Source: Halanaerobium saccharolyticum (GTDB lineage Bacteria > Bacillota > Halanaerobiia > Halanaerobiales > Halanaerobiaceae). From it: a stretch of 64,000 nt of DNA. Below, piece after piece: positions 32,052-51,085 of the stretch. The stretch is from assembly GCF_003259895.1 (NCBI RefSeq), contig NZ_QLME01000002.1, positions 1 to 64,000 of the forward strand. Reading direction: 5' to 3'. Under the pieces are notes generated by a model that saw only the letters and a list, made by a program, of their open reading frames with translations, was not told the origin of the DNA and searched no databases. Made by a program: the position numbers and the translations under genes. Every line of letters begins with the position of its first letter. Position 1 is the first letter of the stretch.

Positions 32052-34784
32052 ATGAATAAGAAAGAAGAGATTTTTGAAATTTCTATGAAATTAGCAGATA
32101 GTAATCAAGATAAAGGTTTAACTGCTAGGGTAATTGCTAAAGAAGCAAATATTTCACGTTCTAATGCAAGTCGTTACTTAAATGAGCTTGTTAAAGACGG
32201 TAAAATGAGAAAAATTAAAGGGAGACCAGTTAAATATCAGATAATAAAAAGTAATAATGATAATGTAAAGAAAATTGATAAAATTATCGGAGCGGAAAGC
32301 AGTTTGAGGATTTCTGTTCAGCAGGCTAAAGCAGCAATATTATATCCTCCGGATGGACTGCATACACTTTTACTCGGGGAAACTGGAGTTGGCAAGTCAT
32401 TTTTTGCAAAATTAATGTATAATTTTGCTGTTGAAGAATCAGTGCTGAAATCAGGTGCTCCTTTTGTCCAATTTAATTGTGCGGATTATGCGGATAATCC
32501 GCAGCTTTTAATGGGACAGCTTTTTGGAGTAAAAAAAGGAGCATATACCGGGGCCAATAAAGATTCAAACGGATTATTAAAAAATGCAGATGGAGGAATG
32601 TTATTCTTAGATGAAGTACATCGATTACCTCCACAGGGCCAGGAAATGTTATTTACCTTTATAGATAACGGATTTTTTAGGATGTTAGGAGATACTGATA
32701 AAACTATCGAAGCAGATGTAAAGATTGTTGCTGCTACCACAGAGTCTCCCGGGTCGTATTTATTAAAGACTTTTCAAAGAAGAATACCTATGGTTATAGA
32801 ATTACCTGCACTATCAGAAAGAACTCTGGAAGAAAGATATAAATTAATCGAGAGTTTTATTAAAAATGAAGAAAAAAGAGTTGGTCAGGAAATTTTAATG
32901 TATAAAAATGCTTTAAAATCATTTTTATTATATGACTGCAAAAATAATATTGGGCAATTAAAAAGTGATATTCAGCTGGCCTGCGCAAAGTCGTTTTTAA
33001 ATTATAAATCAAAAAACAATCAGAAAATTGACCTACTTAAAATTGGTCAGGAAGAATTACCACACCATGTCAAAAAAGGAATTATGAACTTGCCAGATAA
33101 AAGAAAAGAATTAGATGATATTATTAAAAATAAAAGCAATCTAATATCTTTTAGTAATGATATTAATATTAATAATAATCAGGCAAGAAAACCTGCGAAA
33201 ATAGCAGATAAAAATTATATGTTTTATGATGTAATAGAAGAAAAGATTTCTGTTTTAGAAGAAAATGGATTAAATAAAAATGAAATAAGTGAGATTTTAA
33301 ATATTGATATAGAAAAACATTTTAAAAATTATATTGGCGACTTGCCAAAAAATTTCAAAAAGAGTAAGATAGATAAGATAGTTGGGGAAGAAATAGTAAG
33401 TTTGGTTGAAGAAATATTTAAATTGGCTGAAAATAGACTAAATAGAAGTTATGATGAAAAAATATATTATGGACTTGCTCTTCATTTAAAAAGGAGTATT
33501 GCAAGAATAAAAAACGGGGAAAAGATTTATCATCCAAATTTAGATGAAATAAGATCAGATCACTCCCAGGAATTTATTACTGCAATGGAAATTGCTTCAA
33601 TGATTGATGAGAAATTTTCTTTAAAAACACCACTTGATGAAATTGGTTATTTAAGTATGTTTCTTACTGAAAAGCCCTATAACTATGGTAAAAATGATTT
33701 AAAAAAAGTTGGCATTTTAGTAATAATGCATGGTAGAGCTGCTGCAACAAGCATGACAGAAGTAGTTAATAATTTAATTGGAGAGCAGCATGCTGAAGCT
33801 ATTGATATGCCGCTGGCAATGAATCCTCAAGAGGCATATCAGCAGGCAAAGGATAAAGTAGTAGATTTAAATAATGGTGGCGGGGTCTTAATAATGGTTG
33901 ATATGGGTTCTTTAAGCAGTTTTGGAGAAATGATTGAAGAAGAAACCGGAGTAAAGACAAAAACGATTACAATGAGCAGTACGCCTACTATTTTAGAAGC
34001 TTCAAGAAAAGCAGTTTTGGGTGATGAACTAGAAGATATAATATATTCAGTTGAAGAAATTGGAAAAGAAAGTTATCAGCAAAAATTTGAAAAGTCTCTG
34101 AGTTTTGGAGAAAAAGAAAAAATAATAGATAAAAAACATAAAAAGAGATTAGCTGTTGTTACTGCCTGTTTTACAGGAGATGGAGCAGCAGTGAAGTTAA
34201 AAGATTTACTGGAAGAAGAATTAGAACTTGATAGAAATTTTAGTTTGATAACTTTACAATTAATGAATAAAGATGATTTAAAAAAAGAGATAAAAGAGCT
34301 TAAAAGCAAATACAAAGTATTAGCTGTTGTTGGTACAATAAATTTTGATATAAAAGATATTCAATACTTTTCAGCTGCAGATATTTTTACAGGTGATGCG
34401 ATTAATAAATTAAAGAAATTAATTGATAGAGAAGAAATGTATCAGGAGATGAAAAAATCATTAATTGATCAATTTAAATATCTTGATAGTTTTAAGATTG
34501 TAGAAGAATTAAGAGACATAATTAGTAGAATTGAAAATAAATTAAATAAAGATATTGATTCTGGAATTGAACTTGGAATTTTACTGCATATGGCATATAT
34601 GATCGAAAATGTTTTAGCAGGTGGAGAAAATAATAAATTTAAAAACATAGAGGAATATAGTAAAAAAAATAGAGTTAATCTGGAATTATTAAAAGGAATA
34701 GTAAATGATATTGAAGTGACATATAATATTGAGATAGATAAAAATGAACTTGCTTATATATTAGAAATGTTTCAAAATAATTAA
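32052..34784 (+). CDS. LevR/ManR-type sigma-54 activator with PRD and EIIA domains
   Basis: PTS-controlled transcription activator of 910 residues. Order: N-terminal winged HTH (about 1-65); AAA+ sigma-54 domain (about 80-320) with Walker A GETGVGKS at 109-116, a GAYTGA loop at 163-168 for contact with sigma-54, and Walker B LFLDEVH at 184-190; PRD1 around H478; an EIIA-Man-like domain with the phosphorylatable H560 in VIMHGRAAATS; an EIIB-like segment; and PRD2 near the C-terminus (LLHMAYMIENVL). GAYTGA differs from the common GAFTGA by one aromatic swap also used in working activators. It lies directly upstream of a PTS operon preceded by a -24/-12 promoter, its evident target. Confidence 0.93.
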   Translation: MNKKEEIFEISMKLADSNQDKGLTARVIAKEANISRSNASRYLNELVKDGKMRKIKGRPVKYQIIKSNNDNVKKIDKIIGAESSLRISVQQAKAAILYPPDGLHTLLLGETGVGKSFFAKLMYNFAVEESVLKSGAPFVQFNCADYADNPQLLMGQLFGVKKGAYTGANKDSNGLLKNADGGMLFLDEVHRLPPQGQEMLFTFIDNGFFRMLGDTDKTIEADVKIVAATTESPGSYLLKTFQRRIPMVIELPALSERTLEERYKLIESFIKNEEKRVGQEILMYKNALKSFLLYDCKNNIGQLKSDIQLACAKSFLNYKSKNNQKIDLLKIGQEELPHHVKKGIMNLPDKRKELDDIIKNKSNLISFSNDININNNQARKPAKIADKNYMFYDVIEEKISVLEENGLNKNEISEILNIDIEKHFKNYIGDLPKNFKKSKIDKIVGEEIVSLVEEIFKLAENRLNRSYDEKIYYGLALHLKRSIARIKNGEKIYHPNLDEIRSDHSQEFITAMEIASMIDEKFSLKTPLDEIGYLSMFLTEKPYNYGKNDLKKVGILVIMHGRAAATSMTEVVNNLIGEQHAEAIDMPLAMNPQEAYQQAKDKVVDLNNGGGVLIMVDMGSLSSFGEMIEEETGVKTKTITMSSTPTILEASRKAVLGDELEDIIYSVEEIGKESYQQKFEKSLSFGEKEKIIDKKHKKRLAVVTACFTGDGAAVKLKDLLEEELELDRNFSLITLQLMNKDDLKKEIKELKSKYKVLAVVGTINFDIKDIQYFSAADIFTGDAINKLKKLIDREEMYQEMKKSLIDQFKYLDSFKIVEELRDIISRIENKLNKDIDSGIELGILLHMAYMIENVLAGGENNKFKNIEEYSKKNRVNLELLKGIVNDIEVTYNIEIDKNELAYILEMFQNN

Positions 34785-34801
34785 AAATAAAGCTTTCGAT
34801 A

Positions 34802-34834
34802 AGTGTGCAATTATAATTGCACACTATTTTTTTT
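34802..34834. terminator. 24-bp perfect palindrome with T-run: terminator and possible activator site
   Basis: AGTGTGCAATTA is followed at once by its exact reverse complement, then ATTTTTTTT. As RNA this ends the levR-like transcript. As DNA, a perfect palindrome 130-155 bases upstream of the -24 element is also where LevR-type activators bind, so a second role is possible. Confidence 0.75.
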
Positions 34835-34952
34835 GTGCTATTTTAGAATTTGAATAAAAAACTTAAAAAAATATTTATTTTTAGATTCCTATTGTGACAG
34901 TCTTTATAAAATAAATATAAAAAAATAAAGAAAAAATATAAAAAAAGGATGT

Positions 34953-34971
34953 TCTGGCATAGATAATGCAT
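34953..34971 (+). promoter_or_regulatory. Sigma-54 (-24/-12) promoter of the PTS-sulfatase operon
   Basis: TGGCAT, five bases, ATGCA: the invariant GG (34956-34957) and GC (34968-34969) are exactly 10 bases apart as sigma-54 requires. It lies 105 bases upstream of the EIIB gene and downstream of the LevR-type activator gene. Confidence 0.8.
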
Positions 34972-35075
34972 TTATATATAAGTGAGTCAAAAAAATGAAG
35001 GGAGGTTTAAACAAGAGTTTTTGTTCATTTAGAATAAAATGATAATCGATATTAAAAAAATTAAGGGGGATAATT

Positions 35076-35384
35076 ATGAATATTTTATTAGTATGTGCTG
35101 CAGGAATGTCAACAAGTCTGGTTGTTAATAAGATGAAAAAAGCGTTAACTGAAGAAGAAAAAAACTGGACAATTGAGGCTCAGCCAGTTGATTCTCTAGA
35201 AGAAGTGATTGATGATTATGATGTTATTCTATTAGGACCTCAAATTAAGTATAAAGCAGATGAAATCAATAAAATTGGAGATGAATACAATACACCTGTT
35301 GGAGTTGTTGATTCTAAAGATTATGGTATGGGTAAGGGAAGAAATATTCTTAATCAAGCAATTAAATTAAAAGAAAACTATTAA
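35076..35384 (+). CDS. PTS EIIB, lactose/cellobiose family
   Basis: Phosphate-transfer subunit of 102 residues. The phospho-cysteine is C7 in LLVCAAGMSTS, the standard P-loop of this family, and the fold continues with VILLGPQIKYK. It passes phosphate from the separate EIIA (38307-38633) to the sugar bound by EIIC. AAGGGGGAT lies before the ATG. First gene after the sigma-54 promoter, 22 bases from the EIIC gene. Confidence 0.93.
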   Translation: MNILLVCAAGMSTSLVVNKMKKALTEEEKNWTIEAQPVDSLEEVIDDYDVILLGPQIKYKADEINKIGDEYNTPVGVVDSKDYGMGKGRNILNQAIKLKENY

Positions 35385-35406
35385 AAACAAAAGGGGGATT
35401 ATTATA

Positions 35407-36735
35407 ATGGGTTTTTTTGAAAAAATGCAGGGATTTGTAGAAAATAAATTTGCTCCAATAGCTAATAAAGTTAGTAATCAAAGGCATGTTACGGCAATAA
35501 AAAAAGGTCTTATTACTACGTTGCCATTAACAATAATTGGTGGTGTTGCTTTAATCTTGGCAGTTCCTCCAGTTGATACAGAAATAATTCAACCAACTAA
35601 TTTCTTTAATAGATTTTTACTTATGTGGAAAAGTTGGGCCACTGCTAATAATTCTATGTTAATGACACCATATAATTTATCTTTAGGTTTATTGGGGCTT
35701 TTTGTAGTAATAGGAGTTTCATATTTTTTATCAGAAAAATATGAGATAAACAAAATATCTGGCGTTATTACTTCGCTATTCACATTTTTGGTAGTTGCTG
35801 CTCCAACTCAAGCTGATAATCCAGCTGGTTTTATCTCAAGCAATTATTTAGATGCAAAAGGTATGTTTTCAGGAATAATCATTGCCATTATTACTGTGGA
35901 AATAACAAAATTTCTGCTAGAAAAAAATATAAAAATTAAAATGCCTGATGAAGTTCCTCCTATGGTAGCAGCTCCATTTGAAGCATTAATTCCAATAATA
36001 GTAAACGTTGTAGTGTTTATGTCATTAAATAGTCTGGTATTGTCATTATTAAATATGTCTATTCCAGAAATTTCTTTGAAAATTTTTGAACCTATTGTGA
36101 TAGCATCTAATACTTTACCTGGTGTTTTATTAGTAATAATAGTTATAAATTTTCTCTGGTTCTTTGGTATACATGGAGGAGCGGTAGCTAATAGTGTGAT
36201 TGTTCCAATTATTACAGCAAATGTTGCAGCGAATGCAGAAGCAGTTGCTCAAGGAGCAGCAATGCCCTATATTTTTTCAGGTAGATTTGTAAATCTTTTT
36301 GCAAATCTTGGTGGTTCAGGTGCTGCTTTGTCATTAGCGTTAGCAATGATTATTGTAGCTAAATCAAGCCATCTCAAGTCAGTTTCAAAAGTAGGTTTAG
36401 TACCCGCATTTTTTGGAATTAGTGAACCATTAGTTTTTTCAACTCCAATGATTATGAATCCCATGATCTTTTTTCCGATGGTTTTTGTTCCCATAATAAA
36501 TGCCTCAATTACTTATTTTACTATGTCTACAGGTTTAGTTGGAAAAATATATGTTAATGTCCCATTTACGACTCCAGGTCCTTTTGGTTCATTTTTATCA
36601 ACTATGGATTGGAGAGCGGCAGTTTTATGGTTTGTTTTAATAACAATTGATGTGATTATTTATATGCCTTTTGTTAAAGGGTATGATAAACAAATGTTAG
36701 AAGAAGAACAAGTTAGTGAGGTAGAAGCAGCTTAA
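35407..36735 (+). CDS. PTS EIIC, cellobiose/lactose family permease
   Basis: Membrane channel and sugar-binding unit, 442 residues, about ten helices. Typical family segments: amphipathic start MGFFEKMQGFVENKFAPIANKVSNQRH, LWFFGIHGG, GGSGAALSLALAMI and FFGISEPLVFSTPMIMNP. EIIA, EIIB and EIIC are all separate genes here, the cellobiose/chitobiose layout. Family substrates are beta-linked disaccharides and glucosides. The sulfatase gene starts 20 bases downstream, so a sulfated beta-glycoside is a reasonable guess for the substrate. Confidence 0.93.
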   Translation: MGFFEKMQGFVENKFAPIANKVSNQRHVTAIKKGLITTLPLTIIGGVALILAVPPVDTEIIQPTNFFNRFLLMWKSWATANNSMLMTPYNLSLGLLGLFVVIGVSYFLSEKYEINKISGVITSLFTFLVVAAPTQADNPAGFISSNYLDAKGMFSGIIIAIITVEITKFLLEKNIKIKMPDEVPPMVAAPFEALIPIIVNVVVFMSLNSLVLSLLNMSIPEISLKIFEPIVIASNTLPGVLLVIIVINFLWFFGIHGGAVANSVIVPIITANVAANAEAVAQGAAMPYIFSGRFVNLFANLGGSGAALSLALAMIIVAKSSHLKSVSKVGLVPAFFGISEPLVFSTPMIMNPMIFFPMVFVPIINASITYFTMSTGLVGKIYVNVPFTTPGPFGSFLSTMDWRAAVLWFVLITIDVIIYMPFVKGYDKQMLEEEQVSEVEAA

Positions 36736-36755
36736 TAAAGAGGGGAGTCACAAAA

Positions 36756-38216
36756 ATGAGTAAACCAAATTTAGTAATATTTATTGCTGATCAGATGAGA
36801 GCAGATTCTTTATCTCATTTGGGTAATAAGGCTTCTAAAACACCAAATTTAGATAAAATAGTTCAGGAAGATGGAGTTTCATTTAAAAACAATTATTGTC
36901 AGAATACTGTTTGTGTTCCCAGTCGTTCAAGTTTTCTAACTGGTTGGTATCCACATACTAAAGGTCATCGAACAATGCACTATTTATTAGAAGAAGATGA
37001 TCCCATGCTTTTAAAAACACTAAAAAATAATGGATATAATGTTCAGTGGATTGGCAGAAACGATGTAATTCCTGCTGATAAAAGTTTAGATGATTATTGC
37101 AACTCATATTATAGTGGGTATGATAAAGTTAGTGAGGAAGAAAGGAAAAAATCTAGCAAGTGGAAAGAAAAATATCGGGGAGAAAACGACAGTGAAAGTT
37201 TTTATTCGTTTTTAGCTGGTAAAAGTGATAAAAATATTCCTTTTGTTCAGTATGATTGGAATTGTATAAATCGAGCTTTAAATTTTATAGATAATTATAA
37301 TGATGAGCAGCCATTCTGTATATATATATCTTTGATTTTCCCCCATCCACCTTATGGTGCAGAAGAACCCTGGTATAGTTTAATTGACAGAAATAAAGTG
37401 AGATCTCCGAGACCAGTACCAGAGGATTGGGATCAAAAAGCCTCAATGTTAAAAGGTATATATGACCGTCAAAATCTGAAAAACTGGAATGAAGATAGAT
37501 TTAAAGAATTAAGAGCTGTATATCTTGGTATGGTAGCACGAGTAGATCACCATTTTGGGATGCTTGTTAATAAGCTTAAAGAAAAAGAGTTATATAATAA
37601 TACCTCTATGATATTTTTTGCTGATCATGGTGATTACACTGGGGATTATGGTATAGTAGAGAAAAGTCAAAACACATTTGAAGATCCTGTTAGTAATGTA
37701 CCATTAATTATCAAACCACATAAAGGAATTAAGGTGAAACCGAGGGTTACAAAATCTTTAAGTGAACTAGTTGATTTATCTGCAACTGTTGCTGATTTAA
37801 CAAATATTGAATTAGAACATATACAATTTGGTGAATCTGTAGTGCCTGTACTCGAAGGAGAAGAAAAGCATAAAGATGCTGTTTTTGCTGAAGGTGGCAG
37901 AATACATGGAGAAACTCAGGCTATGGAAAAAGGACATGGTCCTGAATCAGAATATTGGCCACGCTTAAATACTCAGGAACAAGAAGGTCCTGAGCATACA
38001 AAAGCTGTTATGATAAGAATGGGTAAATTAAAATATATAGAAAGACTTTATGAAAAAAATGAACTATATAATTTAGAAAGTGATCCAGATGAATTAAATA
38101 ACTTAATATGTAGTGAAGATTATCAAGATCAAATTATTAAATTCAAAGCAAGATTATTGAAGTTTTATATGGAAACAGCTGACTATGTACCAGATAGAAA
38201 AGACAAAAGATATTAA
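36756..38216 (+). CDS. Cytoplasmic type-I sulfatase (formylglycine type)
   Basis: Hydrolyses a sulfate ester with a formylglycine nucleophile. 486 residues. C53-V-P55-S-R57 in NTVCVPSRSSFLTG is the C-x-P-x-R maturation motif, so C53 should become formylglycine. Metal ligands are seen at D12/Q13 (FIADQMRAD) and in FFADHGDYTGDYG. No signal peptide or membrane helix is present, so it acts in the cytoplasm, unlike most polysaccharide sulfatases. Lying inside a PTS operon, its likely substrate is the phosphorylated sulfated sugar after import. Its activating enzyme is probably the radical-SAM maturase at 44049-45290. Confidence 0.92.
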   Translation: MSKPNLVIFIADQMRADSLSHLGNKASKTPNLDKIVQEDGVSFKNNYCQNTVCVPSRSSFLTGWYPHTKGHRTMHYLLEEDDPMLLKTLKNNGYNVQWIGRNDVIPADKSLDDYCNSYYSGYDKVSEEERKKSSKWKEKYRGENDSESFYSFLAGKSDKNIPFVQYDWNCINRALNFIDNYNDEQPFCIYISLIFPHPPYGAEEPWYSLIDRNKVRSPRPVPEDWDQKASMLKGIYDRQNLKNWNEDRFKELRAVYLGMVARVDHHFGMLVNKLKEKELYNNTSMIFFADHGDYTGDYGIVEKSQNTFEDPVSNVPLIIKPHKGIKVKPRVTKSLSELVDLSATVADLTNIELEHIQFGESVVPVLEGEEKHKDAVFAEGGRIHGETQAMEKGHGPESEYWPRLNTQEQEGPEHTKAVMIRMGKLKYIERLYEKNELYNLESDPDELNNLICSEDYQDQIIKFKARLLKFYMETADYVPDRKDKRY

Positions 38217-38223
38217 TATAAAT

Positions 38224-38274
38224 GTTATACTGTAGTAATAAGATTATTATTATTTATAAGGGCTACAGTATAAC
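38224..38274 (+). repeat. 12-bp perfect inverted repeat within the PTS-sulfatase operon
   Basis: GTTATACTGTAG at 38224-38235 and CTACAGTATAAC at 38263-38274 are exact reverse complements with a 27-base loop. No T-run follows. It sits between the sulfatase stop and the EIIA start, where it may tune mRNA stability or read-through. Confidence 0.75.
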
Positions 38275-38306
38275 TATAATCATTCTAAAATTTAGGAGAG
38301 ATTAAG

Positions 38307-38633
38307 ATGACAAATGAAGAAATTATATTTAAAATAATAACGGAAGCGGGAGACGCTAAATCCTTGGCATTTGAGGCGCTCAAAGAAGCTAGAAAAGGTG
38401 ACTTTAAAAAAGCGAGAAAAAAATTAAAAAAAGCAAATAAAAACTTTAATAATGCACATGATGTTCAAACTGATTTAATATCTAAAGAGGCAAATGGGCA
38501 AAAGAATGAAGTTAGTATCCTTATGGTTCATGCTCAAGATCATCTTACTAGTGCAACCCTTGCTAAAGATTTAATAAAAGAAATGGTAAAAATGCAGGAA
38601 GAAATATTTAACTTAAAGGAAAACAAACAATAA
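38307..38633 (+). CDS. PTS EIIA, lactose/cellobiose family
   Basis: Takes phosphate from HPr and passes it to EIIB. 108 residues, all-helical trimer-forming family. The active histidine is H75 with D78 in MVHAQDHL, as in the lactose EIIA active site. A lysine-rich helix (KKARKKLKKANK) covers residues 34-45. AGGAGAG is before the ATG. Placement after the sulfatase rather than beside EIIB/EIIC shows that the sulfatase is embedded within the PTS operon. Confidence 0.92.
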   Translation: MTNEEIIFKIITEAGDAKSLAFEALKEARKGDFKKARKKLKKANKNFNNAHDVQTDLISKEANGQKNEVSILMVHAQDHLTSATLAKDLIKEMVKMQEEIFNLKENKQ

Positions 38634-38656
38634 TTTAAGTGAGATTGGTAAAGTAT

Positions 38657-38932
38657 ATGTAAAAAAAGAAAAAAGTAATGATTGAAAATAGAACAGGTCT
38701 TCACGCAAGACCGGCCTCTCAGTTCGTACAGAAAGTAGGAAAGTTTAGTTCAGAAATTAAAGTCATTTTTAAAGACAAAGAAGTAAACGCAAAAAGTATT
38801 ATGGGATTAATGAGTCTCGGAATAGGAAAAGGAAATGAAATAACTGTTAAAGCAGAGGGTAGTGATGCTGATGAAGCAGTAGAAGAACTTATTGATTTTA
38901 TAGAAGTTGAACTATTAAAAGAAGATAAGTAA
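38657..38932 (+). pseudogene. HPr-family phosphocarrier with a stop at codon 2
   Basis: HPr relays phosphate from enzyme I to EIIA. From ATG 38678 the frame gives 84 residues with the active histidine (TGLHARPAS, H9) and the HPr-kinase serine in AKSIMGLMSL (S40). HPr normally has that His near position 15 and starts with a short strand. Here six such codons lie upstream, preceded by ATG TAA at 38657-38662: the natural start is followed at once by a stop. Translation may restart at 38678, which has only a weak ribosome site and lacks the first strand. The gene is thus damaged or poorly expressed unless the base call is wrong. Confidence 0.75.
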
Positions 38933-40423
<1,491 letters not shown>

Positions 40424-40449
40424 TTTGATTTAAAAAATATTAGATTTGA

Positions 40450-41892
<1,443 letters not shown>

Positions 41893-42112
41893 ATTAGAAA
41901 TCTGGAGATTGGACTAAATATGCTAAGTTATATAAAATATATTTAAGGAAATCTCCTGCTTGAAAAATTGAGTGATAGTGTATTTAAAGATGATAAATCA
42001 AAGGTGGAAAATTTTTATCAGGTAGCTTTAATGAAAAAGGTGGGCTTTCTATTGAAGCAGTAATTATTGTAAATTTTTTTATTTCCCAAAAAAAAGATAA
42101 ATTAAATACTAA

Positions 42113-42301
42113 AAAATAGCAAAAGCTATTGTAGATAAACAAAAATATTTTTTTGATAAAGGTCTAAAACATATTTATATTATGACTATGAAGGAAATAC
42201 CTCAAAAGCTCGGAATGCACGAATCCACCGTTAGTAGGGCAACCACAGCTAAATATAAAAAAAAGATTGGTCTCAATAATTCTAGAAATAGAAAAGCATA
42301 A
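42113..42301 (+). pseudogene. rpoN: C-terminal relic of sigma-54 gene rpoN
   Basis: The frame reads KIAKAIVDKQKYFFDKGLKH, then MTMKEIPQKLGMHESTVSRA, matching the HTH region of sigma-54 (FF-x-KG, LTLKE-x-A-x-x-LGMHESTVSRA). It is followed by an altered tail and a stop. A stop precedes the segment at 42110 and the RpoN box (ARRTVAKYRE) is not found. Bases 41893-42112 hold no readable sigma-54 core or intact gene, only A+T-rich DNA with short frames. The copy is dead, so a working rpoN must exist elsewhere for the -24/-12 promoter to function. Confidence 0.8.
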
Positions 42302-42337
42302 AATTTATAATTCAGAATATAAGGGAGCATAAATGCT

Positions 42338-43993
42338 TTGATTTTAAAAAATATATTTAATAATTATAAAAATGATATGATAAGCGGGCTGACAACTGCT
42401 ACAATTGCTCTACCCCAAAACATGGCCTATGCTTTGATCCTTGGCATAAATCCAATTTATGGAATTTATGCCTCCATTTTTTCGATGCTTACTGCCTCTA
42501 TTTTTAATTTCTCATCATATGTGATTGTCGGACCAACGAATATGATGGCCGTTGCTCTGTTTAGTAGTTTAAGTAATTTCCAGGGTGAAAATTATCTGCA
42601 GACTATATTTTTAACTACATTTTTAATCGGACTCTTTCAATTTTTACTCGTCAGTTTTAATTTAAGCGAATTAATCAAATATGTATCCCATCCAGTAATT
42701 GTTGCTCTTTCCCATGGAGCTGCTGTTTTAATTCTTTTTTCCCAGATCGAAAATTTTACCGGAGTCAACGTTTCAGGCTCAAATGTCATCACCAAAGGCT
42801 GGCGGTTTATTAAAAATTTAGAACAGATTAATTTTATTAATCTCGGAGTTGGATTTTTAACTCTAATTTTAATCTACCTAATTCCACAAATCAAAAAAGA
42901 GCTGCCTGAATATCTGCTGACAGTTATTATTATGACAATCTTTACGGCAGTAAGTGGGCTTAACAGTTCAATTTCTTTAGTTGGAGAAATTCCAAAAAGA
43001 ATTATTGATTTTAATTTAATTAACTTTGACTGGCATCTAGTCGGTCAGCTTTATAGCAAGGCTTTTTCAATAGCTCTTTTAGGACTGATCCAGACAATGG
43101 CTGTCCTCCAGGCAATTTCTTTAAAAACTGATGAGGAACCTGATTTTGACCGAGAATTTAGAAGCCAGGGAATCAGCAATATGGTTATTTCATTTTTTAG
43201 TGCCTTTGCTATTTCAGCTTCTTTTTCCAACACCTTTGCTAACTTAAGCGCTGGCGCCAGACACAGAATCTCTCAGTTTTTCTGTGCCCTTTCGATTATA
43301 ATTTTTATTTTGTTTTTTAGACCACTTTTAGCCTACATTCCAGTAGCTGTGCTGGCTGGTCTGGTTATCGCTGCTGCAGCGGGAATTGCGGATTTTAAAG
43401 AAGTTATTAAAAATATGAAAACCACCAAAGGAGATGCTTTAATTTTCTGGTCAACTTTTACCGCCACAATTGTACTGCCCAACCTTGACCAGGCAATCTA
43501 TTTTGGAGTTATGGTCTCACTGGTTGTTGTTTTACAGATTTCTAAAAAAGCAGATATCGAAATGCTCTATTATGATAAAAAAGAAGGAGATCAGGGATAT
43601 CATCTCCACCATGCTCATCATGAGGAAGCAGATGAATCTGAGATTTCTGCTAAACAGGCAAGAGTAGTCGACCTCAAAGGAGCTGTTCATTTTAGTGCTG
43701 CTGATGATTTAAAAGATCAGCTGGAAGAATTTTTTGCTAAAGACACAGATTTTATTATTCGTTTTCGCAATGTAAGGAGAATTGACATCACAATCATTGG
43801 AGTTTTAGAAGAATTTATTGATCAGGTTCAGGCCAGTGGTGGTGAGGTAATGCTTACCGGAGTCAATGAAAAGATTCTTAAGATGTTTAGGAAGATTGGT
43901 CTGGCTGATAAAGTTGGCGAAAATAATATTTATTTGCCAGAGACTGAATATTTTGCAGCCACCAATAAAGCTTTAAATTATTCTAATAATTAA
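42338..43993 (+). CDS. SulP-family anion (sulfate) transporter with STAS domain
   Basis: Secondary transporter of 551 residues: about 12-14 helices to residue 410, then a STAS domain at about 435-545 (VDLKGAVHFSAADDL, RIDITIIGVLEEF). The N-terminal signature GLTTATIALPQNMAYALILGINPIYGIYA is typical for SulP. Start is TTG with AAGGGAG upstream; an ATG at 42377 would cut 13 residues. SulP proteins carry sulfate, bicarbonate or dicarboxylates. Lying between a sulfatase operon and its maturase, sulfate is the natural guess; whether it exports freed sulfate or imports it cannot be told. Confidence 0.88.
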   Translation: MILKNIFNNYKNDMISGLTTATIALPQNMAYALILGINPIYGIYASIFSMLTASIFNFSSYVIVGPTNMMAVALFSSLSNFQGENYLQTIFLTTFLIGLFQFLLVSFNLSELIKYVSHPVIVALSHGAAVLILFSQIENFTGVNVSGSNVITKGWRFIKNLEQINFINLGVGFLTLILIYLIPQIKKELPEYLLTVIIMTIFTAVSGLNSSISLVGEIPKRIIDFNLINFDWHLVGQLYSKAFSIALLGLIQTMAVLQAISLKTDEEPDFDREFRSQGISNMVISFFSAFAISASFSNTFANLSAGARHRISQFFCALSIIIFILFFRPLLAYIPVAVLAGLVIAAAAGIADFKEVIKNMKTTKGDALIFWSTFTATIVLPNLDQAIYFGVMVSLVVVLQISKKADIEMLYYDKKEGDQGYHLHHAHHEEADESEISAKQARVVDLKGAVHFSAADDLKDQLEEFFAKDTDFIIRFRNVRRIDITIIGVLEEFIDQVQASGGEVMLTGVNEKILKMFRKIGLADKVGENNIYLPETEYFAATNKALNYSNN

Positions 43994-44048
43994 AAGAATA
44001 AATATATGTAGTTAAATAATGAAAGACAATTATGGGAGTTTGATTTTT

Positions 44049-45290
44049 ATGAAAGTGAAAAAACAACATTTCAATCTAATGGCTTTTCCAGCAGGTCCGG
44101 TCTGCAACTTAGACTGTGAATACTGCTATTACCTAAAAAAGACAGAACTTTATCCGGAAAAAAGCGATTTTCAGATGTCAGAAGGAACTTTGGAGGAATA
44201 TATCAAACAATATATAGAAGCTCAGGCCGGTCCGGTAGTTAATTTTGGTTGGCAGGGAGGAGAACCTACCTTAAGAGGGCTAGATTTCTTCAAAAAAGCA
44301 GTTGAGTTACAAAAGAAATATGCTCCAGATAGTTGGAAAATAGAAAACTCAATCCAGACCAATGCAGTTTTAATAGATGACCAGTGGGCTGAGTTTTTAA
44401 AAGAGAACAACTTTTTAGTTGGAGTAAGTCTTGATGGCCCAGCAGAGCTGCATAATAGATACAGAAAAGATAAAGAGAGTAAGGGCACTCATCAAAAAGT
44501 AATGGCAGGAATTGAAAAGCTGAAAGAATATGAAGTGGTATATAATATTTTAGCAGTAGTAAATGATCTGAACACTAAAAACCCGAAAGAAGTTTATCAA
44601 TTTTTTAAAGAAATTGGAACTGATTTTATTCAGTTTATCCCTATTGTTGAGCAGGATCAGGATGGAAATATAATATCTCGTTCGGTGGGCTCAAAAGAAT
44701 ATGGTAAATTTTTAATAGGAGTTTTCAATGAATGGATTGATGATCTGGGAGATATTTATGTCCAGATATTTGAAGAAGCTTTATCAGCCTGGGCTGGTTT
44801 TGGAGCTAACTTATGTGTTTTTAGTGAGGAATGTGGCAAAGGACCAGTAATGGAGTATAATGGAGATCTATATGCCTGTGATCATTTTGTTGAGTCAGAA
44901 TTCAAACTTGGTAATATTAATGATAAAAGTATTTTAGAGATGATGAATTCTGAACAACAAAAGCAATTTGGAAAAGCAAAAAAGAAAAAGTTAAATAAAA
45001 AGTGCTTGGAATGTGAGTACTTATTTTTCTGTAATGGAGGTTGTCCTAAAAACAGAATAGTTGATACAGGTGATGATTATAAGCTGAATTATCTCTGTGA
45101 GGGTTATAAGTTGTTTTTTAACTATGTTAATCCTTTTATGAAAAAGTTAGCTCAGATGGTCAAGCAGAGAAAATCACCATCAGTAATGAAAAAAGAAATG
45201 CAGAATCTATATCAGGAAAAATGGAATGCAGGCAGAAATGATCCCTGTCCCTGTGGAAGTGGGAAGAAGTATAAGAAGTGCTGTTTGTAA
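44049..45290 (+). CDS. Anaerobic sulfatase-maturating enzyme (radical SAM, SPASM) with SEC-C tail
   Basis: Converts the active-site Cys or Ser of sulfatases to formylglycine without oxygen. 413 residues from ATG 44049, which has GGGAG upstream; the earlier ATG at 44019 has no ribosome site. The radical-SAM motif is C19-NLD-C23-EY-C26; GWQGGEPTLRG and VSLDGPAELHNRYR are family segments. The SPASM cluster cysteines lie in CVFSEECGKG, YACDHF and CLECEYLFFCNGGCPKNR. The last residues form a SEC-C zinc motif, CPCGSGKKYKKCC. Its client is most likely the C-x-P-x-R sulfatase at 36756-38216. Confidence 0.92.
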   Translation: MKVKKQHFNLMAFPAGPVCNLDCEYCYYLKKTELYPEKSDFQMSEGTLEEYIKQYIEAQAGPVVNFGWQGGEPTLRGLDFFKKAVELQKKYAPDSWKIENSIQTNAVLIDDQWAEFLKENNFLVGVSLDGPAELHNRYRKDKESKGTHQKVMAGIEKLKEYEVVYNILAVVNDLNTKNPKEVYQFFKEIGTDFIQFIPIVEQDQDGNIISRSVGSKEYGKFLIGVFNEWIDDLGDIYVQIFEEALSAWAGFGANLCVFSEECGKGPVMEYNGDLYACDHFVESEFKLGNINDKSILEMMNSEQQKQFGKAKKKKLNKKCLECEYLFFCNGGCPKNRIVDTGDDYKLNYLCEGYKLFFNYVNPFMKKLAQMVKQRKSPSVMKKEMQNLYQEKWNAGRNDPCPCGSGKKYKKCCL

Positions 45291-45334: not shown

Positions 45335-46280
45335 ATGGAAAAAAAGTGGTGGCATGACAAAATGATTTATCAGGTTTATCTTAAAAGCTTTAATGACAGC
45401 AATAGAGATGGAATCGGTGATGTTCCTGGTATAATAGAAAAGTTTGATTATTTAAATAAGCTGGGAATTGATATTATCTGGCTCAGTCCGGTATACAGTT
45501 CCCCCATGAAGGATAACGGCTATGATATAGATGATTATTATTCAATTGGTGATGAGTTTGGAACAACGGCTGAGATGGAAAAATTAATCGCTGAAGCAAA
45601 AAAGAGAGACTGGTATATCTGGAAAGATCCGAAAGAAAATAGTAATCCCCCAACAAACTGGCGCTCTGTTTTTGGCGGCTCTGCCGGGAGCTATGATCAG
45701 CAGACTGGTCAGTATTATCTTCATACTTTTGCTGAAGAACAGCCGGATTTAAACTGGGAGAATAAAGAGCTAAGACAGGAATTACACAAAATGGTTAACT
45801 GGTGGCTGGATAGAGGTCTGGCAGGCTTTAGAGTCGATGCAATTAGTTTTATTAAAAAGAATGAGTACAAAGATTTAAAGCCTGATGAAGATGATGGTCT
45901 GGCTTAAAGTTAATCCCAATTATAAAGAAGTTAATGTCGAAAAAGTACTGGCTGATCCTGATTCGTTATTTTATTTTTATCAGAAGTTGATCAAACTGCG
46001 CCAGGAAAGCATTTATGCAGAAACTCTAATAGATGGAAGCTATCAGCAACTGCTAGAGGAAAATCAGGATTCAATGGCCTATTTTAGAATCGGATCTGAG
46101 AAAAAAGTACTGGTTATTGCCAATTTTAGAAGTGAAAAAATTAATTTAGAACTGAATTATCAAATAAGAAAGTTAATTTTAAGCAATTATACTGACGGCG
46201 AAGGAAGGTTAAAAGCAGCTCAAGGTAAGATTAATTATATATTTAGACCTTTTGAGACCCTGGTTCTGGAAGTTGAATAA
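45335..46280 (+). pseudogene. Collapsed GH13 alpha-glucosidase/oligo-1,6-glucosidase
   Basis: The first part reads a normal GH13 N-terminus (WWHDKMIYQVYLKSFNDSNRDGIGD, WLSPVYSSP, NGYDIDDY) up to AEAKKRD, then jumps to WYIWKDPKE: the segment with MDLVVNHTSDEH between is gone. The nucleophile region GFRVDAISF remains. After DEDDG the frame stops at 45907; in another frame from 45885 the C-terminal part continues (VWLKVNPNYKEVNVEK to the stop at 46280). The middle of the barrel, with the acid/base Glu and transition-state Asp, is lost. At least two deletions have made it non-functional. Confidence 0.88.
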
Positions 46281-49653: not shown

Positions 49654-51085
49654 ATGAAGTTTACAAAAAGATTAGTTTTATTTACTTCGGTGTTGATGAT
49701 CGGACTAATTTTATCTACGGCTGTTATTGCTTTTGCAGATGATGGGGCAAAATACGTATTTATGTTTATTGGTGATGGAATGGCTAACTCTCAAATTAGT
49801 GCTGCTGAGGCTTTTATGTCTGCCAGGAAAGGTGAAATTGGACAGAACAGACTTAATTTCACCACTTTTCCGGCTCAGGGAATGCAGACAACCTATGCAG
49901 CAGATAGATTTTGCGGCTGCAGCGACATCGATGTCTTCAGGAATTAAGACAAATATTGGATATGTGGGAGTAAATTCAGAAAGTAAAGCTGTTAAGACTA
50001 TTGCGGAATTGGCTAAAGAAAATGGGAAAAAGGTAGGAATAGTTTCTTCTGTTACTATTGATCATGCTACCCCGGCCTCTTATTATGCCCATATTCCAGA
50101 TCGAGGCGAATATTATAAAATTGGTCAGCAGATGGCAGATTCTGGTTTTGATTATATAGCCGGTGGTAAACCTAGAGTTGATAAAACTCCAGAGGGACAA
50201 TTAACTATTCCGGAGCTGATGATGGAAAAAGGTTGGCTAACTATCAATGCAGATAAAGATCCAGCTCAATTCTTAAGTTTAAAAAAAGGAGAATCAAAGC
50301 CAGTTTTTGCATATCAAGCCGGTTTTGCGAGTGGAGCTTTTGAATATGAGATAGATCGCCAGGAAGATGATTTAGACTTAGCGGACTTTACCCGTAAAGG
50401 TATTGAAGTTCTGGATAATGCCAATGGATTTTTTATGATGGTAGAAGGTGGGAAAATTGATTGGGCTGGTCATGCTAATGATGCTGTGACTAATATATAT
50501 GATACGATAGCTTTTGATAAAGCAATTTTGGAGGCAGTTAAATTTTATAATCAGCATCCAGATGAGACTTTAATTGTTGTAACTGGAGACCACGAGTGTG
50601 GTGGACTTACTTTAGGCTGGTCGGGAACAGGTTATGATTCGGCATTTGAAATATTTTCAGGCCAAACTGTATCCTTTGAGTGGTTTGATCATAATGTACT
50701 TAAGCCTTATAAAAATACAGTAGACCAGGCAACAGCAGATATTGCTGATCTTGAAACTGAAATAGAAAAGTATTTTGGCTTGTCTAACTTTAGTGAACGA
50801 GAACAGGAACTATTAGAAAGAGCATTTGTCAGAACTATAGAAGAGGAAAAAGAAAGATCAGACGACGAAGAATCATATATTCTTTATGGCGGTTATGAGC
50901 CATTGACTGTTACTTTAACCCATATTTTAAATAATCGAGCAGGATTAAGCTGGACAAGTTATAGTCATACAGGTGTTCCGGCACCAATCTATGCTCAGGG
51001 CAAAAACCATGAACTTTTTAATGGTTATTATGATAATATTGATATTTATCATAAATTAGTTCAGGCAGCCAATCTAATAAATTAA
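49654..51085 (+). pseudogene. Secreted alkaline phosphatase with deleted active-site motif
   Basis: The first frame gives a signal peptide (1-28), the metal motif VFMFIGDGMANSQ and TTFPAQGMQTTYAADRF, then shifts out and stops at 49947. The alkaline phosphatase sequence resumes in the next frame with AAAATSMSSGIKTN and runs to 51085 with all later motifs (VSSVTIDHATPASYYAH, GGKIDWAGHANDA, VTGDHECGG, SHTGVPAPIYAQG). The family reads TDSAAAAT at the junction; here the catalytic Ser and its neighbours are missing. A deletion of 11 bases near 49905-49913 would explain both the frameshift and the loss. The protein cannot be an active phosphatase as it stands. Confidence 0.88.

Follow-up and report, generated by a model that had tools for sequence, protein, structure and literature searches.

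A phosphotransferase operon with a built-in sulfatase gene in Halanaerobium saccharolyticum, and the predicted cytoplasmic desulfation of an imported beta-glycoside

The closest described counterpart of the system treated here is an island of Streptococcus pneumoniae, SPH1922-SPH1930, in which, as far as the available parts of the two reports go, two Lac-type EIIC genes, EIIA, EIIB and a ComA-like gene accompany a sulfatase, a sulfatase-modifying enzyme, a TauE exporter and a ROK-type regulator (PMC3302838, PMC3283741). The island was published in 2012 and its substrate was not known; according to the available text its deletion lowered fitness in mice, loss of the ROK protein raised the transcripts of the sugar phosphotransferase system (PTS) and of the sulfatase, and the authors pointed out that host sugars can be sulfated, leaving open whether PTS and sulfatase work jointly (PMC3283741). 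Here we describe a related arrangement in the probably salt-loving bacterium Halanaerobium saccharolyticum, on a 64,000-nt stretch of contig NZ_QLME01000002.1 (the window, in its full length, to which all coordinates refer), where a sulfatase gene is placed between the EIIC and EIIA genes of a PTS operon. With moderate confidence, and judging from the genes, we read the locus as a route for the cytoplasmic desulfation of a PTS-imported sulfated beta-glycoside, with both substrate and activity predicted.

Set beside the accessible sections of the pneumococcal work, the window likewise combines Lac-type EII genes, a sulfatase and a maturase in one cluster, together with an exporter gene. It differs by a LevR-type sigma-54 activator and a SulP transporter, where the pneumococcal island has a ROK regulator and TauE, and by two genes of glycoside hydrolase family 1 (GH1a and GH1b), whereas the island carries two EIICs and the ComA-like gene, and the portions consulted name no GH1 for it. 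The quantitative PCR primers printed in PMC3283741 encode, as translated by eye, DQMRADAL and VPARAALL where the window sulfatase reads DQMRADSL and VPSRSSFL; judged from these primer stretches alone, this hints that the pneumococcal enzyme belongs to another S1 subfamily. One of the published primer sequences had no match in viral contigs.

A second parallel is the glycosaminoglycan cluster of Streptobacillus moniliformis, in which, per the available text, a sulfated disaccharide is imported intact by an ATP-binding cassette (ABC) system and the sulfatase is predicted to be cytoplasmic (PMC5430744). Intact import and a cytoplasmic sulfatase are thus shared, while the ABC transporter and a GH88 enzyme set it apart. 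The same authors reason that a disaccharide with its sulfate at C6 is no suitable substrate for the PTS, which constrains the sulfate position in the substrate of the window system. In Vibrio vulnificus an island holds sulfatases together with a sulfate permease, and the part of the paper at hand names no neighbouring PTS gene (PMC3091676). In a literature search that was not exhaustive and covered sources in part, neighbouring PTS and sulfatase genes were found only in the two pneumococcal papers, and the literature on Halanaerobium and sulfatases, judged by titles, held none on such an enzyme. The kind of arrangement is therefore already known from pneumococcus, and an earlier sequence-only reading of the window, which had called a sulfatase gene between EIIC and EIIA unusual, stands in that the linkage is rare among the genomes sampled; the arrangement is partly described for S. 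pneumoniae. New are the sigma-54/LevR-controlled form with predicted phospho-glycosidases, a distant counterpart, and the joint travel of EIIC and sulfatase.

That counterpart lies in genome G347, outside the class of the window's genome, in a class sampled with 26 genomes. Its main run reads EIIA-EIIB-EIIC-sulfatase-maturase-ROK-ChrA-ChrA, followed by a GH1b gene with its own sigma-54-like site, and the cluster gave no SulP match. The sulfatase (about 68% identical, 67-68%) and the EIIC (55%) are the closest relatives found of the respective window proteins, the sulfatase gene starts 92 bases after EIIC, and GH1b is 70% identical to that of the window. Upstream stand a LevR-type activator and an EIIA gene, a transposase-like frame (by eye), a second EIIC gene, a sulfatase gene of a second type and a transposase gene; the second-type sulfatase gene follows the second EIIC by 633 bases and is interrupted by an in-frame stop. 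Thus two EIIC genes in G347 each precede a sulfatase gene, of two different subfamilies. With two EIICs, a ROK gene and a maturase, G347 resembles the pneumococcal island, as known from the accessible text, more than the window does. The order of EIIC and sulfatase kept over this distance supports a functional pair. Two further EIICs of G347 (L144, L145) have no sulfatase in their flanks, and no further EIIC-sulfatase pair was seen among the loci returned from the rest of its class or from the class of G308 (13 genomes), surveys made with three sulfatase queries and one profile that could miss other kinds of sulfatase.

Phylogenies point in the same direction. In a tree of 29 EIICs, picked for their similarity to the EIICs of the window or G347, the three sulfatase-adjacent proteins (one from the window, two from G347) form a single clade with support of 100/99, in a sample that may have missed a closer EIIC with no sulfatase beside it; the branching order inside the clade is without support and one member sits on a long branch. 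For the other 26, no sulfatase was detected in the flanks available, mostly 1.5 kb. The sulfatases of the window and G347 likewise pair (99/91). The window EIIA (96/94) and GH1b (98/98), on the other hand, group with proteins of congeners, and the EIIB tree gave no supported grouping. Because the EIIC and sulfatase trees differ from those of EIIA and GH1b, the likely history is that EIIC and sulfatase entered an already present operon as a pair.

The clade is also marked at positions that, going by work on the solved cellobiose EIIC 3qnq, would face the sugar. In all three members, window position 387, which aligns with W382 of 3qnq, is Phe; the residue is Trp in 25 of the remaining 26. At position 339, which adjoins the invariant E340 (aligned with E334 of 3qnq), Ser is found in the window EIIC and the first EIIC of G347, compared with Asn in 25/26 others and in the second of G347. 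Since the clade is monophyletic, these changes count as single events rather than repeated correlations.

The sulfatase itself scores 141 bits against PF00884 (cut-off 25). Its metal-binding Asp is already residue 12, leaving no room for a signal peptide, as the sequence-only reading had held. In an alignment of 49 rows, the window's included, C53, P55 and R57 of the formylglycine motif are kept throughout, with C-x-P-S-R intact; D12, H197, D290, H291 and K303 are equally invariant, and Q13 is kept in 48 rows, with Glu in G347. We take D12, Q13, D290 and H291 to be metal ligands and H197 and K303 to be catalytic. An AlphaFold2 model (pLDDT 93.8) superposes on dimeric sulfatases, phosphonate monoester hydrolases (PMHs), carrageenan sulfatases, BT1918 (S1_46) and choline sulfatases, mostly at Z 37-40, these scores being tied or nearly so. 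The genome of the window holds one S1-type sulfatase, besides two LtaS-sized proteins (frames of 633 and 634 residues), and one maturase above the curated TIGR03942 cut-off; because each is the only one found, LtaS-sized proteins aside, the two probably form a pair. A maturase gene lies near the sulfatase in the window, in G347 and in the relatives L020, L035 and L066, which argues that the sulfatase Cys is converted.

Several observations weigh against the reading, the first of them concerning activity. For the pneumococcal island, the one comparable system studied by experiment, the sections available report that no hydrolysis of 4-methylumbelliferyl sulfate was detected and that growth was unimpaired in the media used (PMC3283741). 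In the window sulfatase, R101-N-D103 aligns with K-T-H of the solved sulfatase 4upi, so that the K-x-H pair is lacking; across the 49 rows, Asp occupies the His position in 47, and the Lys position is held by 28 Arg and 21 Lys. The His of this pair contacts the sulfate in typical sulfatases. Fold comparison ended in a tie, at Z 40.0 for a sulfatase and 39.6 to 35.6 for PMHs. Because Asp103 replaces His and the two folds tie, activity on sulfate esters is not assured, and the lack of the K-x-H pair is the reason for calling the gene S1-type sulfatase. The same two observations would suit a gene that encodes a formylglycine phosphodiesterase or a PMH instead of a sulfatase, yet the intact C-x-P-S-R, D12, H197, D290, H291 and K303 in all rows and the Lys or Arg kept at the Lys position speak for a sulfatase, and we regard the phosphodiesterase or PMH as improbable. 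The Asp-for-His exchange accordingly calls for caution about the sulfatase label and may hint at an unusual substrate; as a trait of the subfamily it could mark a sulfatase chemistry of its own.

The second set of observations concerns linkage. At E <=1e-70, a close sulfatase was recovered from two of the 398 genomes sampled across the phylum, namely that of the window and G347. A 51% identical enzyme in G032, of the window's order and from a closer set of 61 genomes, has no PTS genes nearby. Around sulfatase relatives, 59 named loci contain no Lac-type EII genes; these were found by two short peptide patterns, many end early at contig ends, and because the G347 sequence misses both patterns the scan under-samples near relatives. 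Absence of conserved linkage in relatives had been named in the sequence-only reading as what would speak against it: linkage does recur once, in distant G347 together with the EIIC clade, and is otherwise rare, as these counts and the congeners discussed below indicate.

The relatives nonetheless fit import before desulfation. They share 38-54% identity and occur in Bacillota, Planctomycetota, Lentisphaerota and Spirochaetota. The N-terminal motif is readable in 46 of 68 cluster members: in 35 the metal-binding Asp lies at or before frame residue 20, in a further 8 a Met precedes it by 11-13 residues, and 3 (L041, L067, L069) show neither. The relatives are thus mostly signal-less, and import before desulfation seems a common habit of the subfamily. 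ABC permease or ATPase genes are present at 23/59 loci, a count in which clusters were named from representatives; that of cluster 10 matched nothing in Pfam at 1e-10, but since cluster 3 also contains the five loci of cluster 10, the count holds. Some loci of the wider subfamily carry sugar-type ABC importers, GH3 or GH43 genes. Relative to the ABC-linked members, the PTS seems to be an exchange of importer. A plasmid search at 1e-30 returned 15 records, the best sulfatase (45%) in Niallia taxi, adjoined by two MFS-like sugar transporters (one checked by Pfam) and, about 3 kb downstream, by a Glc-type (not Lac-type) PTS gene and a GH1 gene 56% identical to GH1a; plasmids gave no EIIC match at 1e-60, and viral contigs no sulfatase relative. 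The second sulfatase type, interrupted in G347, occurs at 10 of 62 compared loci, among them Niallia, G032 and G347, a count that includes one contig region twice (as G032 and L023).

Eleven congeners lack a sulfatase ortholog, the sole match being one of 25% identity in G006, and this too counts against the reading. Four of them (G005, G006, G010, G011) have an equivalent operon of the cellobiose/galactobiose type that resembles the window in its LevR-type activator, HPr, EIIB, EIIC, EIIA and GH1b, and differs in that a GH4 gene is present and a sulfatase absent. Their GH1b is 79-88% identical to that of the window, compared with 35-43% for EIIC. The GH4 gene, between EIIA and GH1b, is Pfam-confirmed in G011, is matched by a very similar frame in G006 and G010, and in G005 corresponds to an EIIA-GH1b gap of fitting length. 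An insertion of the sulfatase gene by recombination, with no functional tie to the PTS, would account for these sulfatase-free operons and for the mosaic state of the region, with an rpoN fossil, a split GH13 gene and no GH4 gene where congeners have one. Against it stand the same EIIC-sulfatase order in G347, where both genes are the closest relatives found, and the sulfatase gene after the second EIIC of that genome, and such a chance insertion appears very unlikely. The operon would instead have arisen by transfer of an EIIC-sulfatase pair into a resident cellobiose-type operon where congeners carry GH4.

Other sulfatase-related genes were seen in the congeners. In G011, a maturase (67%, above cut-off) lies beside the PTS operon (L089 3674-4936), and the PF00884 matches of that genome are an LtaS-sized protein and a weak 412-residue frame; the maturase appears to be left over from a sulfatase since lost. 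In G006, a different signal-less sulfatase (L093 4832-6337) is adjoined by sodium-solute-symporter-like and ROK-like genes (both by eye), with a SulP homologue about 3 kb away.

Regulation by sigma-54 draws on the relatives as well. The activator is 57-65% identical over the matched part to those of the four congener operons and 38% identical to the LevR-type activator beside the G347 cluster; its best NCBIfam match, the equivalog DagR, reaches 522.7, far below the cut-off of 1400. The promoter-like site TGGCAT-N5-ATGCA lies 105 bases 5' of EIIB and is the one match in the window, with 0.32 expected by chance and at least one reached in 27 of 100 shuffles. Taken alone the match is weak, and its position and the relatives carry the interpretation: in G010 and G006 the motif stands directly 5' of the orthologous operon, and in G347 it occurs three times, each just 5' of a cluster gene (EIIA, EIIB, GH1b), a number reached in 0/200 shuffles. 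With this backing, the -24/-12 promoter of the sequence-only reading holds as a promoter-like site. The motif was not seen 5' of the G005 operon, and upstream of that of G011 only deviating forms occur (TGGAAT-N5-ATGCA), a further entry on the negative side. An intact-looking, long-frame rpoN is found elsewhere in the window's genome (G000:C12:80588-81046). A weak, below-cut-off and stop-ridden match to the rpoN fragment was observed in G011, away from its operon (C26:19855-20037).

The features are collected in Table 1. Pfam and NCBIfam profiles place all ten genes that the sequence-only reading had named in the families given there: activator, EIIB, EIIC, sulfatase, EIIA, HPr, two GH1 enzymes, SulP and maturase. 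PF02255, PF02302 and PF02378 are above cut-off for the EII parts and EIIC fits the lacE-subfamily profile; EIIA and EIIB fall below TIGR00823 and TIGR00853, and SulP below TIGR00815. As phospho-glycosidases the GH1 pair stands unevenly. GH1a also passes NF007356 (623.7, cut-off 623), with E. coli BglA (2xhy) as its best solved relative, whereas GH1b is below all curated NCBIfam cut-offs and is placed by its GH1 domain and by its four best solved relatives, all named phospho-enzymes. From EIIB through GH1b the intergenic gaps are 22, 20, 90, 44, 30 and 56 bases, as expected of one operon. SulP and the maturase do follow the GH1 genes, but a gap of 445 bases with the degenerate rpoN fragment intervenes, also to be set against the reading, so that there is no clear sign of joint transcription with the PTS genes; they probably form a separate unit.

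Table 1. Features of the PTS-sulfatase locus, with positions in the window
Feature	Coordinates	Strand	Basis
LevR-type sigma-54 activator, 910 residues	32052..34784	+	Helix-turn-helix, AAA+, two PRDs, EIIA-man domain; PF00158, PF00874 (two stretches), PF03610
Terminator-like hairpin 3' of activator gene	34802..34825	+	10-pair stem and T-run
Sigma-54 (-24/-12) promoter-like site TGGCAT-N5-ATGCA	34955..34970	+	Motif match between activator and EIIB
PTS EIIB, lactose/cellobiose family	35076..35384	+	PF02302
PTS EIIC, lactose/cellobiose family, sulfatase-adjacent clade	35407..36735	+	TIGR00410 341 bits, cut-off 236; tree
S1-type sulfatase without signal peptide, CVPSR formylglycine motif	36756..38216	+	PF00884; AlphaFold2 model
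Intergenic hairpin, sulfatase-EIIA gap	38217..38306	+	RNA fold -22.3 kcal/mol, z -4.2
PTS EIIA, lactose family	38307..38633	+	PF02255; groups with EIIA of congeners, 96/94
HPr phosphocarrier	38678..38932	+	PF00381; TIGR01003 above cut-off; GLHARPA and KSIMGLM sites by eye
GH1a, BglA-like 6-phospho-beta-glucosidase	38963..40423	+	NF007154 646.9, cut-off 624
GH1b, predicted 6-phospho-beta-glycosidase near putative 6-phospho-beta-galactobiosidases	40480..41892	+	PF00232; solved relatives 8b80, 4ze4
Degenerate rpoN fragment (sigma-54 DNA-binding domain)	42092..42259	+	PF04552 52.6 bits, two stops
SulP-family anion transporter with STAS domain	42338..43993	+	PF00916, PF01740
Anaerobic sulfatase-maturating enzyme (radical SAM/SPASM)	44019..45290	+	TIGR03942 486.7, cut-off 349.45

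The hairpin between sulfatase and EIIA has no T-run and could be a processing site or an insertion scar. Beyond the maturase, an alpha-amylase-family gene is spread over two open reading frames (45335-46280), between which a large part of the profile is absent; it is probably a GH13 gene in decay. An alkaline-phosphatase-like sequence (49654-51085) is apparently split over two open reading frames in different frames (by eye).

In the reading we favour, the LevR-type activator and sigma-54 would control a PTS operon for a sulfated beta-glycoside, which EIIC, together with EIIB, EIIA and HPr, would import and phosphorylate, by analogy at the C6 hydroxyl, in which case the sulfate should occupy another position or the second residue. 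Once matured in the cytoplasm, presumably by the one maturase that the genome was found to encode, the sulfatase would strip the sulfate, GH1b and/or GH1a would next cleave the phosphorylated beta-glycoside to sugar phosphates, and SulP or a different anion transporter may export the sulfate set free. We infer the transport of a sulfated substrate, the order of the reactions, the role of SulP and the identity of the substrate alike. The intact uptake and internal desulfation put forward in the sequence-only reading have thus gained evolutionary evidence for the pairing of EIIC and sulfatase, set against the rarity of the linkage, Asp103 and the sulfatase/PMH tie. Sulfotrehalose and haloarchaeal sulfoglycolipids, considered as substrates, were dropped, as their linkages suit GH1 poorly and no evidence favours them.

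The order of the last steps might also be reversed, with a GH1 enzyme first releasing a sulfated aglycone or second sugar, for instance from a sulfated phenolic beta-glucoside, and the sulfatase acting on the product. GH1a is BglA-like, and BglA-like enzymes cleave aryl-beta-glucoside phosphates; the sulfatase model, moreover, is as close to choline and dimeric sulfatases as it is to those acting on sugars. The sugar-type ABC importers, GH3 and GH43 genes at some loci of the subfamily point instead to glycans, and we consider the reversed order rather unlikely. The co-travel of EIIC and sulfatase, being compatible with either order, says only that the imported molecule is sulfated.

As for the fate of the sulfate, the three loci carry anion transporters of three families, namely SulP in the window, ChrA in G347 and, per the available text, TauE in pneumococcus. 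This variety, over three cases, is suggestive of sulfate disposal; a role of SulP itself in sulfate handling is a guess. More tentatively, and at less than even confidence, the EIIC clade may be specialised for sulfated glycosides and be transferred jointly with S1 sulfatases, the two genes making up a cassette that gives ordinary cellobiose-type PTS operons a new target; the sulfatase would act on sugars both sulfated and phosphorylated through a pocket rebuilt with Asp for His, and lineages would add unrelated anion transporters (SulP, ChrA, TauE) for sulfate disposal. If true, such chemistry on sulfated and phosphorylated sugars is not described in the literature we found.

The small EIIC clade, with its substitution of a conserved Trp, offers a directly testable molecular handle. 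The pairing of PTS and sulfatase proposed here might help to explain the pneumococcal island, which, in the portions of the report available, has a fitness effect in mice with no known substrate (PMC3283741). Accounts of how bacteria use sulfated glycans mostly describe desulfation outside the cytoplasm and, less often, ABC import; if the favoured reading is true, the PTS would be a further route, energised by phosphoenolpyruvate.

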